NCBI GenBank assembly: GCA_947258885.1
Contig: CAMYKD010000039.1
Coordinates: forward strand, 1 to 36,381
Direction: 5' to 3'
From: an uncultured Kiloniellales bacterium
GTDB taxonomy: Bacteria > Pseudomonadota > Alphaproteobacteria > Kiloniellales > JAKSDN01
Length of the DNA stretch: 36,381 nt
Positions 1,773 to 36,202 of the stretch are shown piece by piece. The number at the start of each line of letters is the position of its first letter. The first letter of the stretch is position 1. Both the position numbers and the translations under genes were made by a program. The notes below the pieces were generated by a model that made no database searches, was not told the DNA's origin, and saw nothing but the letters and a program-made list of their open reading frames with translations.

Positions 1773-2318
1773 TCAGAGCGCCTCGTGCTCTTCCTCGACC
1801 GGCATGAACCCCTCCCGGCCGGCGAGCGCCAGGAGGCTGCGCCCGGCCAGCGCCAAGCCCTGCAGGCCGAGCAGCACGCAGAACGCCAGGATCACGGTCT
1901 TGAGCAGGAACAGCCCCGGCAGGCCCCCGGCCTCGCGCGACTCCTCGAGCTTGAACCAGGACGCCAGGACGTATTGATAGCTGACCAGAAAGACCACGAC
2001 GACCAAGGGCAACAGCAGGACCAGGGACCCGAAGAGGTCGATCACCGACTTGTAGCGGGGACTCGCCGTGCCGTAGATGATGTCGACCCGGACGTGGCCG
2101 TTGTGCAGCAGGGTGTAGCCCGCGCCCAGCATGAAGACGATGCCGTGCAGCCAGACGTAGGATTCCTGCATCCAGACCCAGCCGATCGCATAGATATAGC
2201 GCAGAATCACGACGATGAATGCGATCAGCACCATCGCCAGCGTAAGCCAAGCGACCCCGCGGCCGATCACGTCGTTCAGGCGGTCGACGAAACGGACGAA
2301 GGCAGCCAGACCTGCCAA
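1773..2318 (-). CDS. dctQ: TRAP transporter small permease subunit (DctQ)
   Basis: The 181-residue protein has four hydrophobic segments: residues ~19-40 (LTLAMVLIAFIVVILRYIYA), one around residues 55-70, one around 95-115 and one around 130-150. This is the usual topology of the DctQ subunit, which pairs with DctM in the inner membrane. It contains the family-typical 'W.QE...WL...FMLGAGYTL' region. The start is TTG at 2318, 43 bp after the bioY stop; a GAGGGG stretch upstream may act as ribosome binding site. dctM follows after two bases, so the two are translated from one mRNA. The distant similarity typical of DctQ makes context an important part of this call. Confidence 0.9.
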   Translation of the reverse strand: MAGLAAFVRFVDRLNDVIGRGVAWLTLAMVLIAFIVVILRYIYAIGWVWMQESYVWLHGIVFMLGAGYTLLHNGHVRVDIIYGTASPRYKSVIDLFGSLVLLLPLVVVVFLVSYQYVLASWFKLEESREAGGLPGLFLLKTVILAFCVLLGLQGLALAGRSLLALAGREGFMPVEEEHEAL

Positions 2319-2361
2319 GAGGTTTGCCCCTCTTCGGTAACCGGCCCCCCGGCGGGCCCCG

Positions 2362-2997
2362 CTATGCGCGCCAGCGCGCCGCCGCCCGCCAGACCAGCGG
2401 CAGGATCGCCGCCGCCAGCATGACCTTCAGCAGATCGCCGAAAACGAACGGCAGAAAGCCGGCGGCAAGGGCGGCGCCCAGCGGACCGCTCGCCCCCGTG
2501 GCAGCGATGTAGGCTTGGCCCGGACCGGCATAGAACAGCGCGAGCCACGCCAGGCCCGGCAGATAGATCGCCAGATTGCCGGCGAGCATGGCGAGCGCCG
2601 TCAGCGGAACGCTTCGGTCCCACCCCAGCTCGGCCAGGTAGCCGACGAGGGCGGCAGCCAGCACGAATCCAGCGATGAAGCCGCCGGTCGGACCGGCCAG
2701 GACCGCCGGGCCGCCCGAAAACTGAGCGAAGACCGGCAGGCCGAACGCGCCCTCCATCGCATAGAGCAGCAACGTCGCGGCGCCCAACCGCCAGCCGAAG
2801 GCGATACCGACAACCAGCACCGCAAAGGTCTGCCCGGTGACCGGCACCGGCCAGAGCGGCACCTGCACCTGCGCGCTGAGCGCCACGAGCAGGCTGCCGC
2901 AGACCGCGAGGATCGAGTTGCGCAGCCAGGTCCGGGCCGCATCGCTCGGCCAGAGCGTGGTTGCCAGGGTTGCCCTGGTGATGGATTGCGAGAACAA
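2362..2997 (-). CDS. bioY: BioY biotin transporter substrate-specificity component
   Basis: This 211-residue membrane protein is the S component of an energy-coupling-factor type biotin importer, which in many alphaproteobacteria works with BioMN or alone. The BioY signature runs through 'QVQVPLWPVPVTGQTFAVL', 'GAATLLLYAMEGAFGLPVFA' and the glycine-rich 'GPTGGFIAGFVLAAALVGYL', with about six membrane segments. The open frame extends to 3126, but the likely start is TTG at 2997: an AGGAGAG ribosome binding site (3003-3009 on the complement) lies five bases before it, and the added N-terminus would be arginine-rich and unlike the family. No bioM or bioN is nearby. No TTAT..ATAA-type BioR palindrome was seen upstream. 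Confidence 0.92.
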   Translation of the reverse strand: MFSQSITRATLATTLWPSDAARTWLRNSILAVCGSLLVALSAQVQVPLWPVPVTGQTFAVLVVGIAFGWRLGAATLLLYAMEGAFGLPVFAQFSGGPAVLAGPTGGFIAGFVLAAALVGYLAELGWDRSVPLTALAMLAGNLAIYLPGLAWLALFYAGPGQAYIAATGASGPLGAALAAGFLPFVFGDLLKVMLAAAILPLVWRAAARWRA

Positions 2998-3199
2998 AAG
3001 CCTCTCTCCTTTCTGCGCGACGAACCCAACACAGCCGTTGTCACTCGCGCGGTGATTCCTGCGCCGCGGGACGGCGCCCCGGAGCCCCATCTCAATACGG
3101 TAACGGACTCTGGCTGCCAAGTCCAAACGCGGAAGCCAACCCCGCGTGCGACCGGGGCGAAGGAAGCGTCGGATGCGGTCGTCGGGATTCCGAGGGGGG

Positions 3200-5434
3200 T
3201 TAGCCGAACTTGTCCGTCTTCGGGAAGCCCTTGGGCGGCAGGCGGCCGGCCTGGGCGCGCTTGCCGATCCAGGCAGTCAGGTCGGTCTCGGTGCGCGTGC
3301 GCCCGCCGGAGGTGGTCCAGGACAGACCGTCGGCGAGAGTGAAGGTATTCACCGCCCAGAGACCGCCATCCTTGTACTTCTGCAGGATCACGCCGCGCCC
3401 GCGGGTCATCTCCGGCAGTTCCTCCAAGGGGAAGACCAGGAGCTTGCGGTTCTCGCCGATGACCGCGACGCTGTCACCAACAACCGGCGAGCAGGCGGCC
3501 GCCTCCTCGCCCTCGGCCAGGTTGAGCACCTGCTTGCCGTTCTTGGTCTGGGCGATCACCTCGTCCTCGGGCACCACGAAGCCGCGGCCGGCGGACGATG
3601 CCACAAGCAGCTTGCGCTCCGGCTGGTGGACGTAGAGCGCGACGATGTCCTGATCGTTCGGCAGGTCGATCATCAGGCGCACCGGCTCTCCGAAGCCGCG
3701 GCCGCCGGGCAGCTTGTCCACGCCGATCGTGTAGAAGCGTCCGTTGGTGGCGAACATCAGCAACTTGTCCGTCGTCATGGCGCGCAGCGCGAAACGGCCG
3801 CGGTCGCCCTCCTTGTACTTGGCGTCGGAGACGTCCTCCTGGTGCCCCTTCATGGCCCGGATCCAGCCCTTGGCGGAGCACAGCAGGGTGACCGGCTCGC
3901 GCTCGACCACGGCCTCGAGCGGCACGACGACGTCGGGCGGCGCGTCGCCGATTTCCGTGCGCCGCCGGCCGAGCTCGGTCTTGGGGCCGAAACGCTGCTT
4001 GATCTGCCCGATCTGCGCCGCGATCACGCCCCAGCGCCGATCCTCGTCCTTGAGCAGCTTCTTGAGGTCGGCGCGCTCCTCGGTCAGCGCCGCGTGCTCC
4101 TTGCGGATACCCTCCTCCTCGAGCTTGCGCAGGGCGCGCAGGCGCATGTTGAGGATCGCCTCGGCCTGCACGTCGCTCAGCTCGAAGCGTTTCATGAGGA
4201 TGGCCTTGGGCTCGTCCTCCCCGCGGATGATACGGATCACCTCGTCGATGTTCAGGTAGGCGATCAGATAGCCATCCAGCACCTCCAGACGCCGGGCGAT
4301 CTGCTCCAGGCGATAGCGGGTGCGGCGCAGCAGCACCTCCTGGCGGTGGTCGAGGAAGGCCTGCAGCACCTCCTTGAGGCTCATGACCCGCGGCGTGTGC
4401 TCGGCGTCCAGCACGTTCATATTGAGGCTGACCCGCGTCTCCAGGTCGGTCTGGCGGAACAGCGATTCCATGAGCACGACCGGGTCGACGTTGCGGCTCT
4501 TGGGCTCGAGCACCAAGCGGATCTCGGCGGCCGACTCGTCGCGCACGTCGTTCAGTACGGCGAGCTTGCGGGCGGCCAGGAGCTCGGCGATCTTCTCGAC
4601 CAGACGCGACTTCTGCACCTGGTAGGGAATCTCGGTCACCACCACCAGGTAACCGCCGCCCTTCAGCTTCTCGCTATGCCAGCGGGCACGCACGCGGAAC
4701 GCGCCGCGCCCGGTCTTGTAGGCCTCGACGATCGACTCGCGGCCTTCGACCAGCACGCCGCCGGTCGGGAAATCCGGCCCCGGCACCAACTCGACCAGCT
4801 TTGCCATGGTCGCCCTGGGATGCTTGATCAGGTGGACCAGCGCGTCGCACAGCTCGGCCAGATTGTGCGGAGGGATCGCACTGGCCATGCCGACGGCGAT
4901 GCCCTGGGCGCCGTTGGCCAGCAGGTTGGGCAGGCTGGCCGGCAGGACCACCGGCTCCTCTTCCGCGCCGTCGTAGGTCGGCCGGAAGTCGACCGTATCC
5001 TCGTCGATACCCTCAAGCAGGGCCATCGCGGCCTCGGTCAAGCGCGACTCGGTGTAGCGCATGGCCGCGGCGTTGTCGCCGTCGACGTTGCCGAAATTGC
5101 CCTGGCCGTCGATCAGTGGGTAGCGCAGCGAAAAATCCTGGGCGAGCCGCACCAGCGCGTCGTAGATCGACTGGTCGCCGTGCGGGTGAAACTTGCCGAT
5201 GACGTCGCCGACCACCCGGGCCGATTTCTTGAAGCCCTGGTCCGGGTTGAGGCGCAGCTGGCGCATGGCGTAGAGCAGGCGCCGGTGCACCGGCTTGAGC
5301 CCGTCGCGCACGTCGGGCAGCGAGCGCGCCATGATGGTCGAGAGGGCATAGGCCAGATAGCGCTCCTCCAGGGCATCGGAGAAACGTACGGTCCTGATCT
5401 CGCCGGCCGGTTCGGTATTCGAGGACGAACTCAT
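3200..5434 (-). CDS. parC: DNA topoisomerase IV subunit A
   Basis: ParC is the DNA-cleaving subunit of topoisomerase IV, which decatenates daughter chromosomes together with ParE. The 744-residue length suits ParC. The catalytic tyrosine is Tyr127 in '[11 protein letters not shown]', and the quinolone-determining region reads [17 protein letters not shown] (residues 80-96). '[16 protein letters not shown]' and '[14 protein letters not shown]' are characteristic of the GyrA/ParC family. Two arguments favour ParC over GyrA: the shorter C-terminal part, without a recognisable GyrA box, and the FGNVDGD segment. The residue at the position of E. coli ParC Ser80 is Gln88, and Glu84 corresponds to Asp92. 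Start at ATG 5434, preceded by a weak AAAGAG. It stands alone, with about 225 bp of non-coding DNA upstream. Confidence 0.96.
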
Positions 5435-31462: not shown

Positions 31463-33286
31463 TCAGTCGTCTCTGTCACCTGCTGTGGGCTCGAGAGCAA
31501 AGACCCGGTTCACATAGTCGACGATTTGCTGGACGCATTCGTCGATCGTGTGGCTTGCTGTATCGACGCAGAGTTCCGGTGCCACGGGCTCCTCGTAGGG
31601 GGCGGAAATGCCCGTGAAGTCCTGGATCTCGCCCGCGCGCGCCTTGCGATAGAGGCCCTTGGGATCGCGTTGCTCGCAAGTCTCGAGGTCCGCCTTGATA
31701 TGGATCTCGTGAAAGTCATTGCCGGCGGCAGCACGCGCCCGGTCGCGGTCGCTCTGATAAGGCGAGATGAACGCGCTGACGCAGATGATGCCGGAATCGG
31801 CAAAGAGCGCCGCGACCTCGCCTATCCGCCGAATATTCTCCGCCCGGTCCATCGGCGAGAACCCGAGGTTGGCATTGAGCCCTCGCCGTACGTTGTCGCC
31901 GTCCAGCACGTAAACGTGGAACCCCTTTCTGAACAAGTGCTGTTCGACCGCCATTGCAAGCGTCGACTTGCCCGCGCCCGACAACCCGGTTAACCAAAGC
32001 ACACCGCCGCCATGCCCGTTGCGCTGGAGCCGGCTTTTCGCGGTGACCCGATGTGCCACGCTGGTGATGTTGGTCGATTTGACGGTCAACGCCTGGCGCT
32101 GATCCGGATACCCTGCCATGGAAATAAGGCCGCCGGCGACTTTCTGACCGCCATCGAACAGAGCGAAGCGGCCGGTCTGGGCGATCGCCCGGAACTCGTC
32201 GACCGCAAGGATCTGACGGCCACGCAGGATCACTTCGGCAAAGGTGTCGCACTCGACCCGCCCACCGGCACGCTCAGCCAGCGTATCCATATCGAAAGCG
32301 CGTTCGATCGACTGGACCGCGATCCGGGCCTCCTGGGTGGCTATTCGCAGCGTGTAGGTCTTGCCCGCCCCCAGCGGCTCGGCGCCGTTCCAGACCAAGC
32401 TGGCCGGGAAAACCGTCGTCAATTGAGGCGGGTTTTCCTTGTGGCTCGCCATCTCGCCGCATTCGACATAGATCTTCTCGTCCAGGACAACGCCGACGGT
32501 GTCGCCCGCCCGCGCCACGGCGACCGGATCGTGTGCACTGGAGACCTTGATAGAGTGGACCTGTGCGTTCTTGTTGGAAGGAGAGAGCAAAAGCGTATCG
32601 CCGACCCGCAGCACTCCGGTCTCAATGCGCCCGGTCAAGAGCCGGCGCCCCTCCAATTCGCCGACGTCCTGAATCGGCAATCGGAGCGGCTGGTCCATGG
32701 ACAAGGTAACGCTTTGGAAACGCTCCAATGCCTCCAGCACGCTCGGTCCACCGTACCAGGCCATGTTCTTCGATCGCCGGGCTATATTGTCTCCGTCGCG
32801 AGCCGAGACCGGCACGGCGAGGGCCGGGGCGATCCCAATCTCGGACAAGTGCCGCGACATGTCGCCGGCCACCTCGGCGAAGCGATCCTGGCCGAAGGCG
32901 ACCAGATCCATCTTGTTGACCACGACGGCGACCTGGCGAATGCCGAGTTGGTGCAGCAAATAGGCGTGCCGGCGCGAATCCTCGGACACGCCCTCGGCGG
33001 CGTCGACGATCAGGATCGCGGCATCCGCGCAGTCCACGCCGCTCACCATGGTGCGCAGGAACTCTCGCGGACTCGGGGCATCGATGACCGTGCAGTCCCG
33101 TGAACCGGTCATGAAGCGGATCCGCGAGACCTCGGTGGCCTCGCCTTCCTGCCGTTTCCCGGGCGGGGGAGATCCGGTGTCGTGGAGCAGGCAACCGATG
33201 AGGGTCGACTTTCCGGAATCGACATGGCCGACCACCACGAGCTTCAAGGGCGGTTGTGCGGTCCTGGGGCTCTGGTTTCTGGGCAT
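31463..33286 (-). CDS. cysNC: CysNC-like fusion: degenerate GTPase/EF-Tu-like domains plus APS kinase
   Basis: The 607-residue protein joins an elongation-factor-like sulfate adenylyltransferase large-subunit part to a C-terminal APS kinase. The kinase half looks complete: P-loop GLSGAGKS (434-441), 'DGDNVRRGLN' (462-471), and the phospho-Ser region 'AFISPY' (Ser508). It should make PAPS from APS. The GTPase half has a P-loop GHVDSGKST (20-28) and NKMD (124-127). However, only ~40 residues separate P-loop and switch II against ~70 in CysN, the 'REQGITI' switch I is absent, and switch II reads DAPSP where CysN has DTPGH. No cysD is adjacent. GTP coupling to ATP sulfurylase may therefore be lost or altered. 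Confidence 0.88.
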   Translation of the reverse strand: MPRNQSPRTAQPPLKLVVVGHVDSGKSTLIGCLLHDTGSPPPGKRQEGEATEVSRIRFMTGSRDCTVIDAPSPREFLRTMVSGVDCADAAILIVDAAEGVSEDSRRHAYLLHQLGIRQVAVVVNKMDLVAFGQDRFAEVAGDMSRHLSEIGIAPALAVPVSARDGDNIARRSKNMAWYGGPSVLEALERFQSVTLSMDQPLRLPIQDVGELEGRRLLTGRIETGVLRVGDTLLLSPSNKNAQVHSIKVSSAHDPVAVARAGDTVGVVLDEKIYVECGEMASHKENPPQLTTVFPASLVWNGAEPLGAGKTYTLRIATQEARIAVQSIERAFDMDTLAERAGGRVECDTFAEVILRGRQILAVDEFRAIAQTGRFALFDGGQKVAGGLISMAGYPDQRQALTVKSTNITSVAHRVTAKSRLQRNGHGGGVLWLTGLSGAGKSTLAMAVEQHLFRKGFHVYVLDGDNVRRGLNANLGFSPMDRAENIRRIGEVAALFADSGIICVSAFISPYQSDRDRARAAAGNDFHEIHIKADLETCEQRDPKGLYRKARAGEIQDFTGISAPYEEPVAPELCVDTASHTIDECVQQIVDYVNRVFALEPTAGDRDD

Positions 33287-33474
33287 CGCTCTGTTATCCG
33301 GTGTCAGAGTTAGCCGCCCGAGCGCAACCGCTCCAAGGCGGGCCCGCAGCTAGAAGACGCGCCGGGAGGACTCGCGCGCCGGATAGCCTCTTTGGTCCGC
33401 CGAAGCAACTGTTTTTCGGTGTTTCGGGGCGACCGGCACCGGGGATAGACTGCCTAAAACACAAGAAGGAACTG

Positions 33475-34677
33475 GTGACCGTGCGCAACACGACCGCCTC
33501 CGGATCGCGAAGATACGCGGGGCCCGCGATTCTGGAGCGGGGGTTCCGTCCCTTCTTCCTGGCGGCCGGTCTCTGGGCGGCTTTGACGGTCGTCTTGTGG
33601 CTGGCCATGATCGCGGGCGTCTTCACCCTCCCCAGCGCTCTCGGTCCGGTCGACTGGCACGCGCACGAGATGCTGTTCGGGTATGGCGCCTCGGCAACCG
33701 CCGGATTCCTGTTGACCGCGATCCCGAACTGGACCGGGCGGCTGCCCGTCCGCGGGTGGCGCTTGGCCTTGCTGGTCGGGGTCTGGGCCGCAGGACGCCT
33801 GGCGGTCGCCACCTCGGCGTCGATCGGCTTGGAGGTCGCGGCGGCCATCGACGTCGCCTTTCTCCTGGTGTTCTGGGCGACCATTCTGCGCGAGATCCTG
33901 GCGGGACGGAACTGGCGCAATCTGATCGTCGCCGGCTTGGTCGGCTTTCTGGTGGTCAGCAATATATTGATTCATCTGGAGTATCTGGGTGTCGCAGAAT
34001 CGGCGGCCCTCGGATTTCGCCTTGCCATCGCCGATATGCTGCTTCTGATCACGTTGATCGGCGGGCGCATCGTTCCCAGCTTCACACGCAACTGGCTCGC
34101 GAAGGGAGGCGAGACGGTCCTTCCAAGCCCATTCGGCCGGCTAGACCGACTGGCCCTGGCGACTTCGCTGGCGGCGGGTCTGCTCTGGGCCTTCTTGCCG
34201 GAGGGTGTCTTGACCGGCGTCGTTGTCCTGTTCGCCGCCCTATCCAACGGGTTGCGCTTGGCGCGTTGGCGCGGCCACAAGACCGTGGCCGAGCCGCTGG
34301 TCTGGATTCTGCATCTCGGCTACGGCTGGATCGCCGCCGGCTTCACGCTGTTGGCGGTCTCGCTGCTGACATCGGCATTGCCGCAAACCGCGGCGATTCA
34401 CGCGTTCACGATCGGGGCCGTGGGAACCATGACGCTCGCCGTGATGACCCGCGCCACATTGGGTCACACGGGGCGCACGCTGACCGCCGGGCCCTGGACC
34501 ACGGCGATCTACGTGCTCGTGACCGCCTCAGGCCTTCTACGCGTGGTCTCGCCGATCTTGGCAGACGTTGAAACGGCCGTGGTCGCTCTGGCTGGGCTCT
34601 GTTGGATCGCCGCCTTCGGCGTTTTCGTAGCGTTTTATGGGCCCCTCCTCGCGGGCGGATCCACCCGCCCGGGATAG
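33475..34677 (+). CDS. nnrS: NnrS family membrane protein
   Basis: NnrS proteins are haem- and copper-containing membrane proteins linked to nitric-oxide stress and denitrification. The 400-residue protein has about twelve membrane segments, the histidine-bearing 'DWHAHEMLFGYG' near the first helices, and 'ILIHLEYLG' and 'HAFTIGAVGTMTLAVMTRATLGHTGR' further on, all family hallmarks. Likely start is GTG 33475, four bases after AAGAAGGA; GTG 33481 is an alternative. It is divergent from the CysNC-like gene (188 bp). Its middle to 3' part and the following CBS gene were duplicated in tandem, leaving a broken copy at 35324-35570. Confidence 0.93.
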   Translation: MTVRNTTASGSRRYAGPAILERGFRPFFLAAGLWAALTVVLWLAMIAGVFTLPSALGPVDWHAHEMLFGYGASATAGFLLTAIPNWTGRLPVRGWRLALLVGVWAAGRLAVATSASIGLEVAAAIDVAFLLVFWATILREILAGRNWRNLIVAGLVGFLVVSNILIHLEYLGVAESAALGFRLAIADMLLLITLIGGRIVPSFTRNWLAKGGETVLPSPFGRLDRLALATSLAAGLLWAFLPEGVLTGVVVLFAALSNGLRLARWRGHKTVAEPLVWILHLGYGWIAAGFTLLAVSLLTSALPQTAAIHAFTIGAVGTMTLAVMTRATLGHTGRTLTAGPWTTAIYVLVTASGLLRVVSPILADVETAVVALAGLCWIAAFGVFVAFYGPLLAGGSTRPG

Positions 34678-34724
34678 GCGCAATCCGGGGAGGCCGACAG
34701 AGCGGTCGATAACATCAAAGGTAC

Positions 34725-34753
34725 TACAGCGCCGGGCGAAATGGCCTTATACT
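34725..34753 (+). promoter_or_regulatory. Candidate promoter of the first CBS gene
   Basis: TATACT at 34748-34753 makes a good -10 element inside the 18-base block AATGGCCTTATACTGCCG (34740-34757), which is repeated exactly before the second CBS gene. A weak -35 (TACAGC, 34725-34730) lies 17 bases upstream. In both copies the -10 begins 101 bases before the ATG, although much of the leader between has diverged. Confidence 0.5.
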
Positions 34754-34848
34754 GCCGCTTGGACTCGCAACGACAATAGTGACTGCCGGGCACACGGGCG
34801 ATTTGCTCGCTTCGGATCGGACCCGGCCAACGGGGGAGGAGGCTTGCC

Positions 34849-35283
34849 ATGAAGGTTCGCGACATGCTCGCTCAAAAGGGGGGCGAGGTGGCGACAGTCC
34901 GGCCGGATGCGACCATCGACACCGTAGTTCACAGACTTAAGGTCGAGGGCATCGGCGCCCTCGTGGTGAGCGCGGACGACGACGGGGTCGACGGCATAAT
35001 TTCCGAACGCGATATCGTACGCGGTCTGCCCGAGCACGGCGCGGCCTTGCTCTCGATGAAGGCCTCCGAGATGATGACAAGCTCCGTGAAGACCTGCGCG
35101 CCGGACGACAAGATCGAGGACATCATGTCCGAGATGACCAGCCACCGCTTCCGCCACCTGCCGGTCGTATCGGACGGCAAGCTGTGCGGAATCATCAGCA
35201 TCGGCGACGTGGTCAAGAACCGGCTGGAAGAGTTGGAGACCGAGACCCACGTGCTGCGCGACTTCATCGTCGGCCGCAGTTGA
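34849..35283 (+). CDS. CBS-domain-pair protein (copy 1)
   Basis: The 144-residue protein consists of two CBS motifs forming one Bateman module: CBS1 ~1-65 (MKVRDMLAQKGGEVATVRPDATIDTVVHRLKVEGIGALVV...GIISERDIVRGL) and CBS2 ~70-132 (SEMMTSSVKTCAPDDKIEDIMSEMTSHRFRHLPVV...LCGIISIGDVVKNRLEEL). Such modules bind adenine nucleotides or related ligands and act as stand-alone sensors. A GGAGGAGG ribosome binding site lies just before ATG 34849. It follows nnrS after 171 bp and has its own candidate promoter. About 83% of residues are shared with copy 2. Its partner protein is not known. Confidence 0.92.
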   Translation: MKVRDMLAQKGGEVATVRPDATIDTVVHRLKVEGIGALVVSADDDGVDGIISERDIVRGLPEHGAALLSMKASEMMTSSVKTCAPDDKIEDIMSEMTSHRFRHLPVVSDGKLCGIISIGDVVKNRLEELETETHVLRDFIVGRS

Positions 35284-35323
35284 CGCCGCGCCCGGCGGGC
35301 ACCTGCCGAGGGTCATCCGGGCC

Positions 35324-35570
35324 CCCTGCCCAGCGCTCTCGGTCCGATCGACTGGCATGCGCATGAGATGTTGTTCGGATATGGCGCGGCGGCGATCGCC
35401 GGATTCCCGTTGACCGCAATCTCGAACTGGACTGGATGGCTGCTTGTCCGAGGTTCTCGATTGACCTTGCTGATCGGATCCTGGGCCGTCGGATGGCTGG
35501 CCGCCGCCTCCGCGTGGATCGGCTTCGGAGCGTTCTATGGACCCCTCCTCGCGGGCCGGCCCGCCCGACA
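35324..35570 (+). pseudogene. nnrS fragment from tandem duplication, internally deleted
   Basis: This stretch matches nnrS 33626-33835 (PSALGPIDWHAHEMLFGYG... through SAWIGF) and then jumps to the match of 34627-34672 (AFYGPLLAG). The two parts have offsets of 1698 and 900 from their counterparts, so 798 bp (266 codons) are missing, in frame. The start region of nnrS is not included, and the old stop codon is lost, so the frame stays open to 35739. The first ATG, at 35368, would give a 123-residue product with at most three membrane segments. No ribosome binding site is apparent, and I regard it as non-functional. Confidence 0.85.
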
Positions 35571-35643
35571 ACAACACCCAAGGTGCCTACGCCTCTCCGG
35601 CGTTTGCTGTGTTCGGAGCTTGGTGGCAACAGAATTGGAGACT

Positions 35644-35672
35644 TACGGCACTGCGCGGAATGGCCTTATACT
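35644..35672 (+). promoter_or_regulatory. Candidate promoter of the second CBS gene
   Basis: TATACT at 35667-35672 sits in the same 18-base block (35659-35676) as at copy 1, with a weak -35 (TACGGC, 35644-35649) 17 bases upstream and the same 101-base distance to the start codon. Conservation amid diverged flanks supports a working promoter. Confidence 0.5.
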
Positions 35673-35767
35673 GCCGATTGAGTTGGTGAGGGCACTGAAG
35701 ATTGCCGGGCAGAGGGGCGATCCGTTCGCTTCGGACTAAGCTTGGTTGACAAGGGAGGAGGCTTGCC

Positions 35768-36202
35768 ATGAACGTTCGCGACATGCTCTCCAAGAAGGGT
35801 AACGAGGTGGCGACAATCCGGCCGGATGCGACCATCAACACAGCCGTACGCAGACTCAAGCTCGAGGGCATCGGCGCCCTCGTGGTGAGCGCGGACGATT
35901 CCGGCATCGACGGCATCATCTCCGAGCGTGATATCGTACGCGGCCTGCCCGAGCACGGCGCGGACCTGCTCTCGATGAAGGTCTCCGAGCTGATGACAAG
36001 CTCGGTGAAGACCTGCGCGCCGGACGACAAGATCCAGGGCATCATGTCCGAGATGACCCGCCGCCGCTTTCGCCACATGCCGGTCATAACGGACGGCAAG
36101 CTGTGCGGCATCATCAGTATCGGCGACGTGGTCAAGAGCCGGCTGGAGGAGTTGCAGACCGAGACCCACGTGCTGCGCGATTATATCGTCGGCCGCAGTT
36201 GA
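35768..36202 (+). CDS. CBS-domain-pair protein (copy 2)
   Basis: The second copy has the same length of 144 residues, the same two CBS motifs and the same strong GGAGGAGG ribosome binding site. Some 24 residues differ from copy 1, mostly conservative changes (Val/Ile, Asp/Asn, Lys/Asn) at surface-like positions; the 'GIISERDIVRGLPEHGA', 'TSSVKTCAPDDKI' and 'GKLCGIISIGDVVK' stretches are unchanged. That pattern suggests that both copies are functional and may form hetero-dimers or sense different conditions (inference). Confidence 0.92.
   Translation: MNVRDMLSKKGNEVATIRPDATINTAVRRLKLEGIGALVVSADDSGIDGIISERDIVRGLPEHGADLLSMKVSELMTSSVKTCAPDDKIQGIMSEMTRRRFRHMPVITDGKLCGIISIGDVVKSRLEELQTETHVLRDYIVGRS

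Follow-up and report, generated by a model that had tools for sequence, protein, structure and literature searches.

The window analysed here (the whole stretch of DNA, 36,381 nucleotides, from an uncultured Kiloniellales bacterium) encodes a CysNC-like protein that is probably an APS kinase fed by Sat/Apr, in which the fused CysN half would now be a pseudo-GTPase remnant, retained because it helps folding or acts as a scaffold. An APS kinase with a scaffolding EF-like half was among the readings offered by the first-pass annotation of this DNA, and it fits the lesions of the GTPase switches, the absence of CysD, the presence of Sat and a folded EF-like half under non-neutral evolution.

Domain architecture of the window protein

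The gene lies on the reverse strand, and its features are as follows.

31463..33286, minus strand: whole ORF, 607 aa with an ATG start, putative pseudo-CysN (EF-like) half fused to an APS kinase (ORF reading, relatives)
33203..33229, minus strand: P-loop of the EF half, GHVDSGKST (residues 20-28), retained (motif reading and alignment)
33134..33139, minus strand: junction of residues 50/51, where the switch I segment is gone (27 residues in intact relatives, ending in ERDQAVT) (alignment)
33068..33082, minus strand: switch II, DAPSP (residues 69-73), replacing DAPGH (alignment)
32906..32917, minus strand: NKMD guanine-specificity motif (residues 124-127), retained (motif reading and alignment)
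32087..32716, minus strand: EF-type domains 2 and 3 (residues ~191-400), retained (Pfam, structure model, structural matches)
31562..32005, minus strand: APS kinase domain PF01583, with its own P-loop GLSGAGKST at ~31961-31987 (Pfam, curated model, alignment)

Pfam analysis recognized an EF-Tu-type GTP-binding domain (PF00009) and EF domains 2 and 3, together with an entire APS kinase domain, so that the EF-like half lies N-terminal to the APS kinase as in the CysNC/NodQ layout. The Sat-type sulfurylase domain (PF01747) had no Pfam match in this protein, where the EF fold is found instead. The kinase half, which had been described as looking fully active, does look intact: it scored 249.4 bits against TIGR00455 (APS kinase; cut-off 138.7) and 219.6 bits against PF01583 (cut-off 21.1), and retained the blocks that do not vary across a 21-row alignment. 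These include the P-loop and the DGDN, FISPY and RDPKGLY blocks, all present in the window protein and located in largely invariant columns. No second APS kinase was seen in the genome of the window when the window protein itself, rather than the PF01583 profile, was used as query, and the other four matches all fell in its GTPase half.

Scores of the CysN half were less clear-cut. The window protein reached 255.1 bits against TIGR02034 (CysN), below the cut-off of 336.1, and an intact relative (P0002) passed with 353.4 bits; however, a degenerate protein from genome G415 also passed (458.5 bits), and the TIGR02034 score by itself therefore does not decide between intact and degenerate CysN. 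Against PRK05506 (CysNC; cut-off 715) the window protein scored 510.9, and an intact member of its subfamily was likewise below the cut-off (615.1).

Origin from a DAPGH-type CysNC subfamily paired with cysD

A distinct CysNC subfamily, whose members are mostly 56-65% identical to the window protein, was frequent in the order (61 genomes). We compared 32 intact members, 29 from genomes of the order and three from other metagenome-assembled genomes. The P-loop GHVDHGKS and a switch I of the ERDQ(A/G)(V/I)TID type were present in all of them, DAPGH in 31 and NKxD in 29; it should be noted that NKxD, missing from three intact members, is not a strict marker. A divergent cysD was usually located directly upstream, with ~200 bits to TIGR02039, which is under the cut-off of that model. 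Throughout the order (for example in G021:C73:821-1600), the match of this CysD to TIGR02039 is split into positions 1-205 and 237-293, which looks as though ~30 positions had been lost or exchanged.

The DAP that this subfamily normally has where CysN reads DTP resembles EF-1alpha, and a PDB sequence search with an intact member gave a near tie between archaeal EF-1alpha (284.5 bits) and CysN 1zun (281 bits). The subfamily pair on a plasmid of Skermanella mucosa, annotated cysD and cysC, represents the direct relatives and the source subfamily of the window gene. Such pairs keep GHVDHGKS, switch I, mostly DAPGH and usually an upstream cysD, whereas the window protein is without intact switches and CysD. 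It had been proposed that the protein might belong to a distinct subfamily of PAPS synthases, which is half right. The window gene descends from a distinct and widespread alphaproteobacterial CysNC subfamily with an EF-1alpha-like DAPGH; however, the members of this subfamily are as a rule undamaged and have cysD as a partner gene, and the damage to the GTPase is a later, genus-level loss.

Lesions of the GTPase switches in the genus

The genome of the window (G000; 4.9 Mb, 97% complete) formed the genus set together with G031 (94% identical) and G032 (88%). As annotated, the P-loop and NKMD are both kept, and guanine nucleotides might still be bound; the P-loop reads GHVNSGKSA and GHAGSGKSA in the two sister species versus GHVDSGKST in the window protein. 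The reported shortening of the switch I spacer by about 30 residues was also confirmed, with 27 residues deleted relative to five intact relatives and 30 relative to three canonical CysNC proteins. All three genus genomes share this deletion, and with it the loss of the switch I motif R-E/D-Q-x-[IV]-T (originally noted as a missing REQGITI), which is kept in each of the 32 intact members of the subfamily and the eight canonical proteins compared. The suspicion that the alteration was confined to one strain does not hold: since the deletion is found in 3/3 genus genomes, the lesion is not accounted for by chance or by one faulty assembly, and an isolated mutation or assembly error was rejected.

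Switch II reads DAPSP in G000 and G031 and DASSP in G032. In the first-pass annotation, DAPSP had been set against the DTPGH of CysN. The change from GH to SP is indeed a lesion, but the alanine is normal, because DAPGH is the usual form in the intact subfamily (31/32). The derived features are the switch I deletion and the GH-to-SP replacement only.

Absence of CysD and presence of Sat and Apr

No CysD match was obtained in any of the three genus genomes (91, 96 and 97% complete), which are draft assemblies in which an absence is not proof. This extends the original remark that no CysD is adjacent, since none was matched anywhere in the genome assembly of the window or in the two other genus genomes, and a hidden CysD was rejected on this basis. 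The same search was positive in 55 of the 61 genomes of the order and in 10 of 14 control genomes.

On the other hand, the homomeric ATP sulfurylase Sat was present in all three genus genomes, scoring 498 bits against PRK04149 (cut-off 387) in that of the window. The contig that carries it also encodes AprA (965 bits against TIGR02061; cut-off 641.75), an HdrA-like protein, a protein in which the AprB C-terminal domain was recognized and, as identified by eye, another AprA-like ORF, and holds an APS-handling cluster of the dissimilatory kind. Motif scans revealed AprA and AprB motifs close to Sat in G032; in G031, whose contig is short, an AprB-type motif was detected. According to passages of one report, Sat of Allochromatium vinosum is co-transcribed with aprMBA, and a separate CysDN serves assimilation (PMC3779200).

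In the order, Sat was detected in 6/6 CysD-less genomes versus 6/55 genomes with CysD (Fisher p 1.7e-5, for related genomes that are not independent). In one of the six CysD-less genomes (G016), only a fusion of Sat and APS kinase was found and no CysNC. We then turned to the class, evenly sampled with 385 genomes, in which Sat was present in 44, any CysD match in 223, a strong CysD in 212 and a strong CysNC match (to P0002, the intact relative, with E up to 1e-60) in 214. Among these 214 CysNC genomes, 10 were without a strong CysD; Sat was found in 7 of them versus 20 of the 204 with CysD (p 2.2e-5, kinship ignored), although in one of the seven (G363) only as a 31-position fragment. Because the genomes are related, the p-values are only a guide. 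The three with neither a strong CysD nor Sat (G068, G203 and G353) have an intact GTPase half, and their CysD was therefore likely lost in an assembly gap. The GTPase half of G369 is intact as well. Among the 20 class genomes with both Sat and CysD, the 18 other than G346 and G392 all keep switch I and DAPGH, so that Sat is permissive, not sufficient, for the loss.

The scenario that we favor is as follows. The ancestor would have been one subunit (CysNC) of a GTP-driven, sulfate-activating CysD-CysNC pair, in a lineage carrying Sat and AprBA, which produce and process APS with no need for GTP. Once Sat or AprBA (acting on sulfite and AMP in the oxidizing direction) provided APS, CysD would have been lost, and the GTP switch, namely switch I and the histidine of DxPGH, would have decayed afterwards; in these bacteria with sulfur-oxidation genes, partner and switch were most likely lost because another pathway already supplies APS. 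Without CysD and switch I, the job of CysN would be out of reach for the EF-like half, which has probably been retained mainly as a folded appendage for solubility, oligomerization or placement of the kinase. The kinase half, which would convert APS to PAPS, would have stayed under strong selection throughout, since no other APS kinase was seen in the genome. We infer the order of these events, the source of APS, the role of the EF-like half and the use of PAPS.

Parallel decay and fusions in other genomes

Degenerate GTPase halves were also found outside the genus, in genomes that have no strong CysD. In G033, a member of the same family with a canonical-type CysNC, the P-loop, switch I, switch II, NKMD and most of domain 2 are lost and the kinase is intact. 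The pattern of the window protein is repeated in G415 (also canonical type), where the P-loop and NKMD are kept, switch I is shortened away and DTPGH has become DIPGR. Two members of the subfamily of the window protein, from G179 and G282, retain the fusion but no longer have the GTPase motifs, the P-loop and NKMD among them; both genomes gave weak CysD-family matches (3.5e-7 and 2.6e-4, respectively). Kinase-only proteins of 212-226 aa are encoded in three Sat-bearing genomes (G022, G400 and G088), and little more than the kinase is left in G363. Motif scans placed AprA and AprB next to Sat in G022, G033, G400, G415, G346 and G088; no apr motif was detected around Sat in the 17 kb read of G179 or the 8.8 kb read of G282. 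We did not count as decay five genes that look shortened but lie at contig ends (G424, G063, G140, G430 and G338), nor the gene of G317 with its frameshift. The latter is a CysNC of the intact subfamily (L112) split into overlapping ORFs at 2131-3198 and 2835-4175.

Considering that the lesions differ and that two types of CysNC are affected, the natural reading is that at least three separate losses of the GTPase may have occurred. A tree of 73 APS kinase domains, in which bootstrap was not settled, the centre was unresolved and branches were long, assigned G033 and G415 to the canonical clade and grouped G179 with G282; G022 fell next to the intact G021. The dead-GTPase label required at least three changes on this tree; well-supported branches alone forced only one (60 unlabelled rows ignored). 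A count of origins from the kinase-domain tree was rejected, since the strong branches alone do not force several origins.

Two fusions of another kind were observed. In G392 (L114:2015-4102, plus strand), CysD with its PP-loop kept is fused in frame to domains 2-3 and the APS kinase of the CysNC subfamily, and the G domain is missing, possibly a GTPase-free fusion; Sat and a match to CysNC over its full length were found in this genome as well. A fusion of the same type in G346 (L116:1396-3549, minus strand) has an altered CysD PP-loop as well (SLDADS). It is the sole match to intact CysNC in G346 at E up to 1e-20, and Sat lies beside apr motifs there.

Selection on the two halves and alternative explanations

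The two halves of the protein have evolved at different rates within the genus. For the genus pairs, dN was 0.040-0.087 and omega 0.29-0.32 in the EF half, versus 0.009-0.018 and 0.06-0.16 in the kinase half. The EF/kinase dN ratio was 3.0, 4.9 and 9.8 in the three pairs, versus 0.38-1.87 in 39 close pairs of intact relatives and a median of 1.19 with a maximum of 1.87 over 492 of the 496 pairs of intact relatives, which are not independent, a simple dN comparison that is weakened by the different synonymous density of the two halves (p 8e-4). The omega of the EF half (0.31 for G000-G032) differs from 1 (p 5e-11) and is no higher than that of the neighbouring nnrS and dehydratase genes (both 0.32). 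Because of the latter, the relaxation of the EF half rests on the contrast inside the protein; it is relative relaxation, not free decay.

An AlphaFold2 model of the window protein built with the 21-row alignment (mean pLDDT 81.8, pTM 0.60) predicted three folded domains in the EF half, with a nine-residue low-confidence loop just before the switch I junction. The best structural matches were to archaeal EF-1alpha (Z 42.3, rmsd 2.5, 369 aligned), and CysN 1zun was matched with Z 38.5 (rmsd 3.7, 372 aligned). The match list from VIA-align contains EF-type chains only, being filled by the EF half, and has no bearing on the kinase half.

These data bear on the possibility that the EF half is evolutionary debris on its way out, roleless and preserved only by the reading frame that leads into the kinase. 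Its fast change relative to the kinase half and the disappearance of the whole half from the Sat-bearing G022, G400 and G088 would agree with such a fate; however, an omega that departs from neutrality and a model that still holds three EF domains with good matches to EF-1alpha and CysN make it unlikely.

The EF half might instead be a nucleotide sensor that binds GDP/GTP without hydrolysis and tunes the APS kinase, the lesions locking the switch for regulation. Purifying selection on this half would be expected of a sensor, as would the retention of the P-loop and NKMD where switch I and the switch II histidine are gone, in the genus and in the canonical-type G415. There is also a precedent in Entamoeba, whose dead sulfurylase-like domain influences APS kinase activity (PMC13213808, in the portion available). 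However, the P-loop drifts in the sister species, and G033, G179 and G282 have lost both P-loop and NKMD yet kept the fusion, so that binding is not generally needed, and we consider this role rather improbable. Equally doubtful is a broader version, in which Sat-bearing Alphaproteobacteria (with Sat beside apr in most cases read) repeatedly and independently turned the CysN half into a pseudo-GTPase, which in lineages that still have the P-loop and NKMD (such as the window genus and G415) would have taken on the regulation of the APS kinase by binding guanine nucleotides. Finally, a working CysN-type GTPase with an unrecognized CysD or another partner is hardly tenable: the P-loop and NKMD are present, but switch I is absent, CysD-family matches are missing from 3/3 genus genomes, and the sole PAPS-reductase-family protein of the window genome (48 bits) is on another contig. 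The preferred reading remains an APS kinase with a folded pseudo-GTPase appendage.

Relation to known systems

Among known systems, CysNC/NodQ (with CysD/NodP as partner) shares with the window protein the domain order, full-length homology and a complete APS kinase half. The window protein differs in that no CysD was found, switch I is deleted, DxPGH is lost and the scores are below the TIGR02034 and PRK05506 cut-offs. CysN is unusual in that GTP hydrolysis drives a metabolic reaction. The genomes compared here offer a natural series that begins with intact pairs, continues with GTPase halves that are partly or fully dead and ends with free kinases, alongside CysD loss and Sat presence, and comparison makes it testable why sulfate activation should cost GTP. 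In addition, a gene labelled 'CysNC' or 'CysN' in a genome of this kind does not necessarily encode an ATP sulfurylase.

Thiobacillus denitrificans is a sulfur-oxidizing bacterium. Its APS kinase and that of Entamoeba histolytica are, as far as the available part of the source goes, the nearest functional parallels, in which the kinase is fused to a catalytically dead sulfurylase-type domain. In E. histolytica this domain affects kinase activity, and the two-domain layout of T. denitrificans is similar (excerpts of PMC13213808). Their dead domain is of the Sat type, whereas the putatively dead one of the window protein has the unrelated EF-like CysN fold and would be an EF-fold parallel to them. 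APS kinases with a dead Sat-type domain are known; the like outcome on the EF-like CysN fold would be new here. In the passages available from two surveys of translational GTPases (PMC1780047 and PMC4342817), CysN is treated as a derivative of EF-1alpha, one of them stating that GTPase activity is kept, and no dead members are mentioned; no description of a pseudo-GTPase CysN was found in the literature covered, namely open-licence papers.

Use of PAPS and gene neighbourhood

PAPS probably feeds sulfotransferases. At least three sulfotransferase genes (PF00685/PF13469) lie within 5.4 kb in the window genome, in which no clear PAPS reductase was found. The only PAPS-reductase-family (PF01507) protein detected there (L059:1649-2542, minus strand) is under the curated CysH and reductase cut-offs and is without the ECGxH motif. 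CysH as a user of PAPS was rejected, given this weak PF01507 protein in the window genome and none in G032. The suggested link to sulfated surface polymers would agree with the sulfotransferase genes and the lack of a clear reductase, but it stays circumstantial, as no sulfotransferase gene was recognized in the window and PF13469 had no match in G032, the third species, for which the case for PAPS use by sulfotransferases is therefore weak. Gene neighbourhood was rejected as a clue to sulfation: the sulfotransferase motif scan of 21 loci was too insensitive, missing the neighbour of the Skermanella pair and two of the three genes in L057.

PAPS-reductase-like proteins without ECGxH were observed by eye beside the apr-sat clusters of G022 (L068:8138-8842, plus strand), G415 (L166:14030-14650, minus strand) and G033 (L072:10450-11070, minus strand). 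In the window itself, gene content is repeated at 33256-36202, where nnrS and a CBS-domain gene (34849-35283) are followed at 35368-35739 by a fragment that resembles NnrS by eye and at 35768-36202 by another CBS-domain gene.
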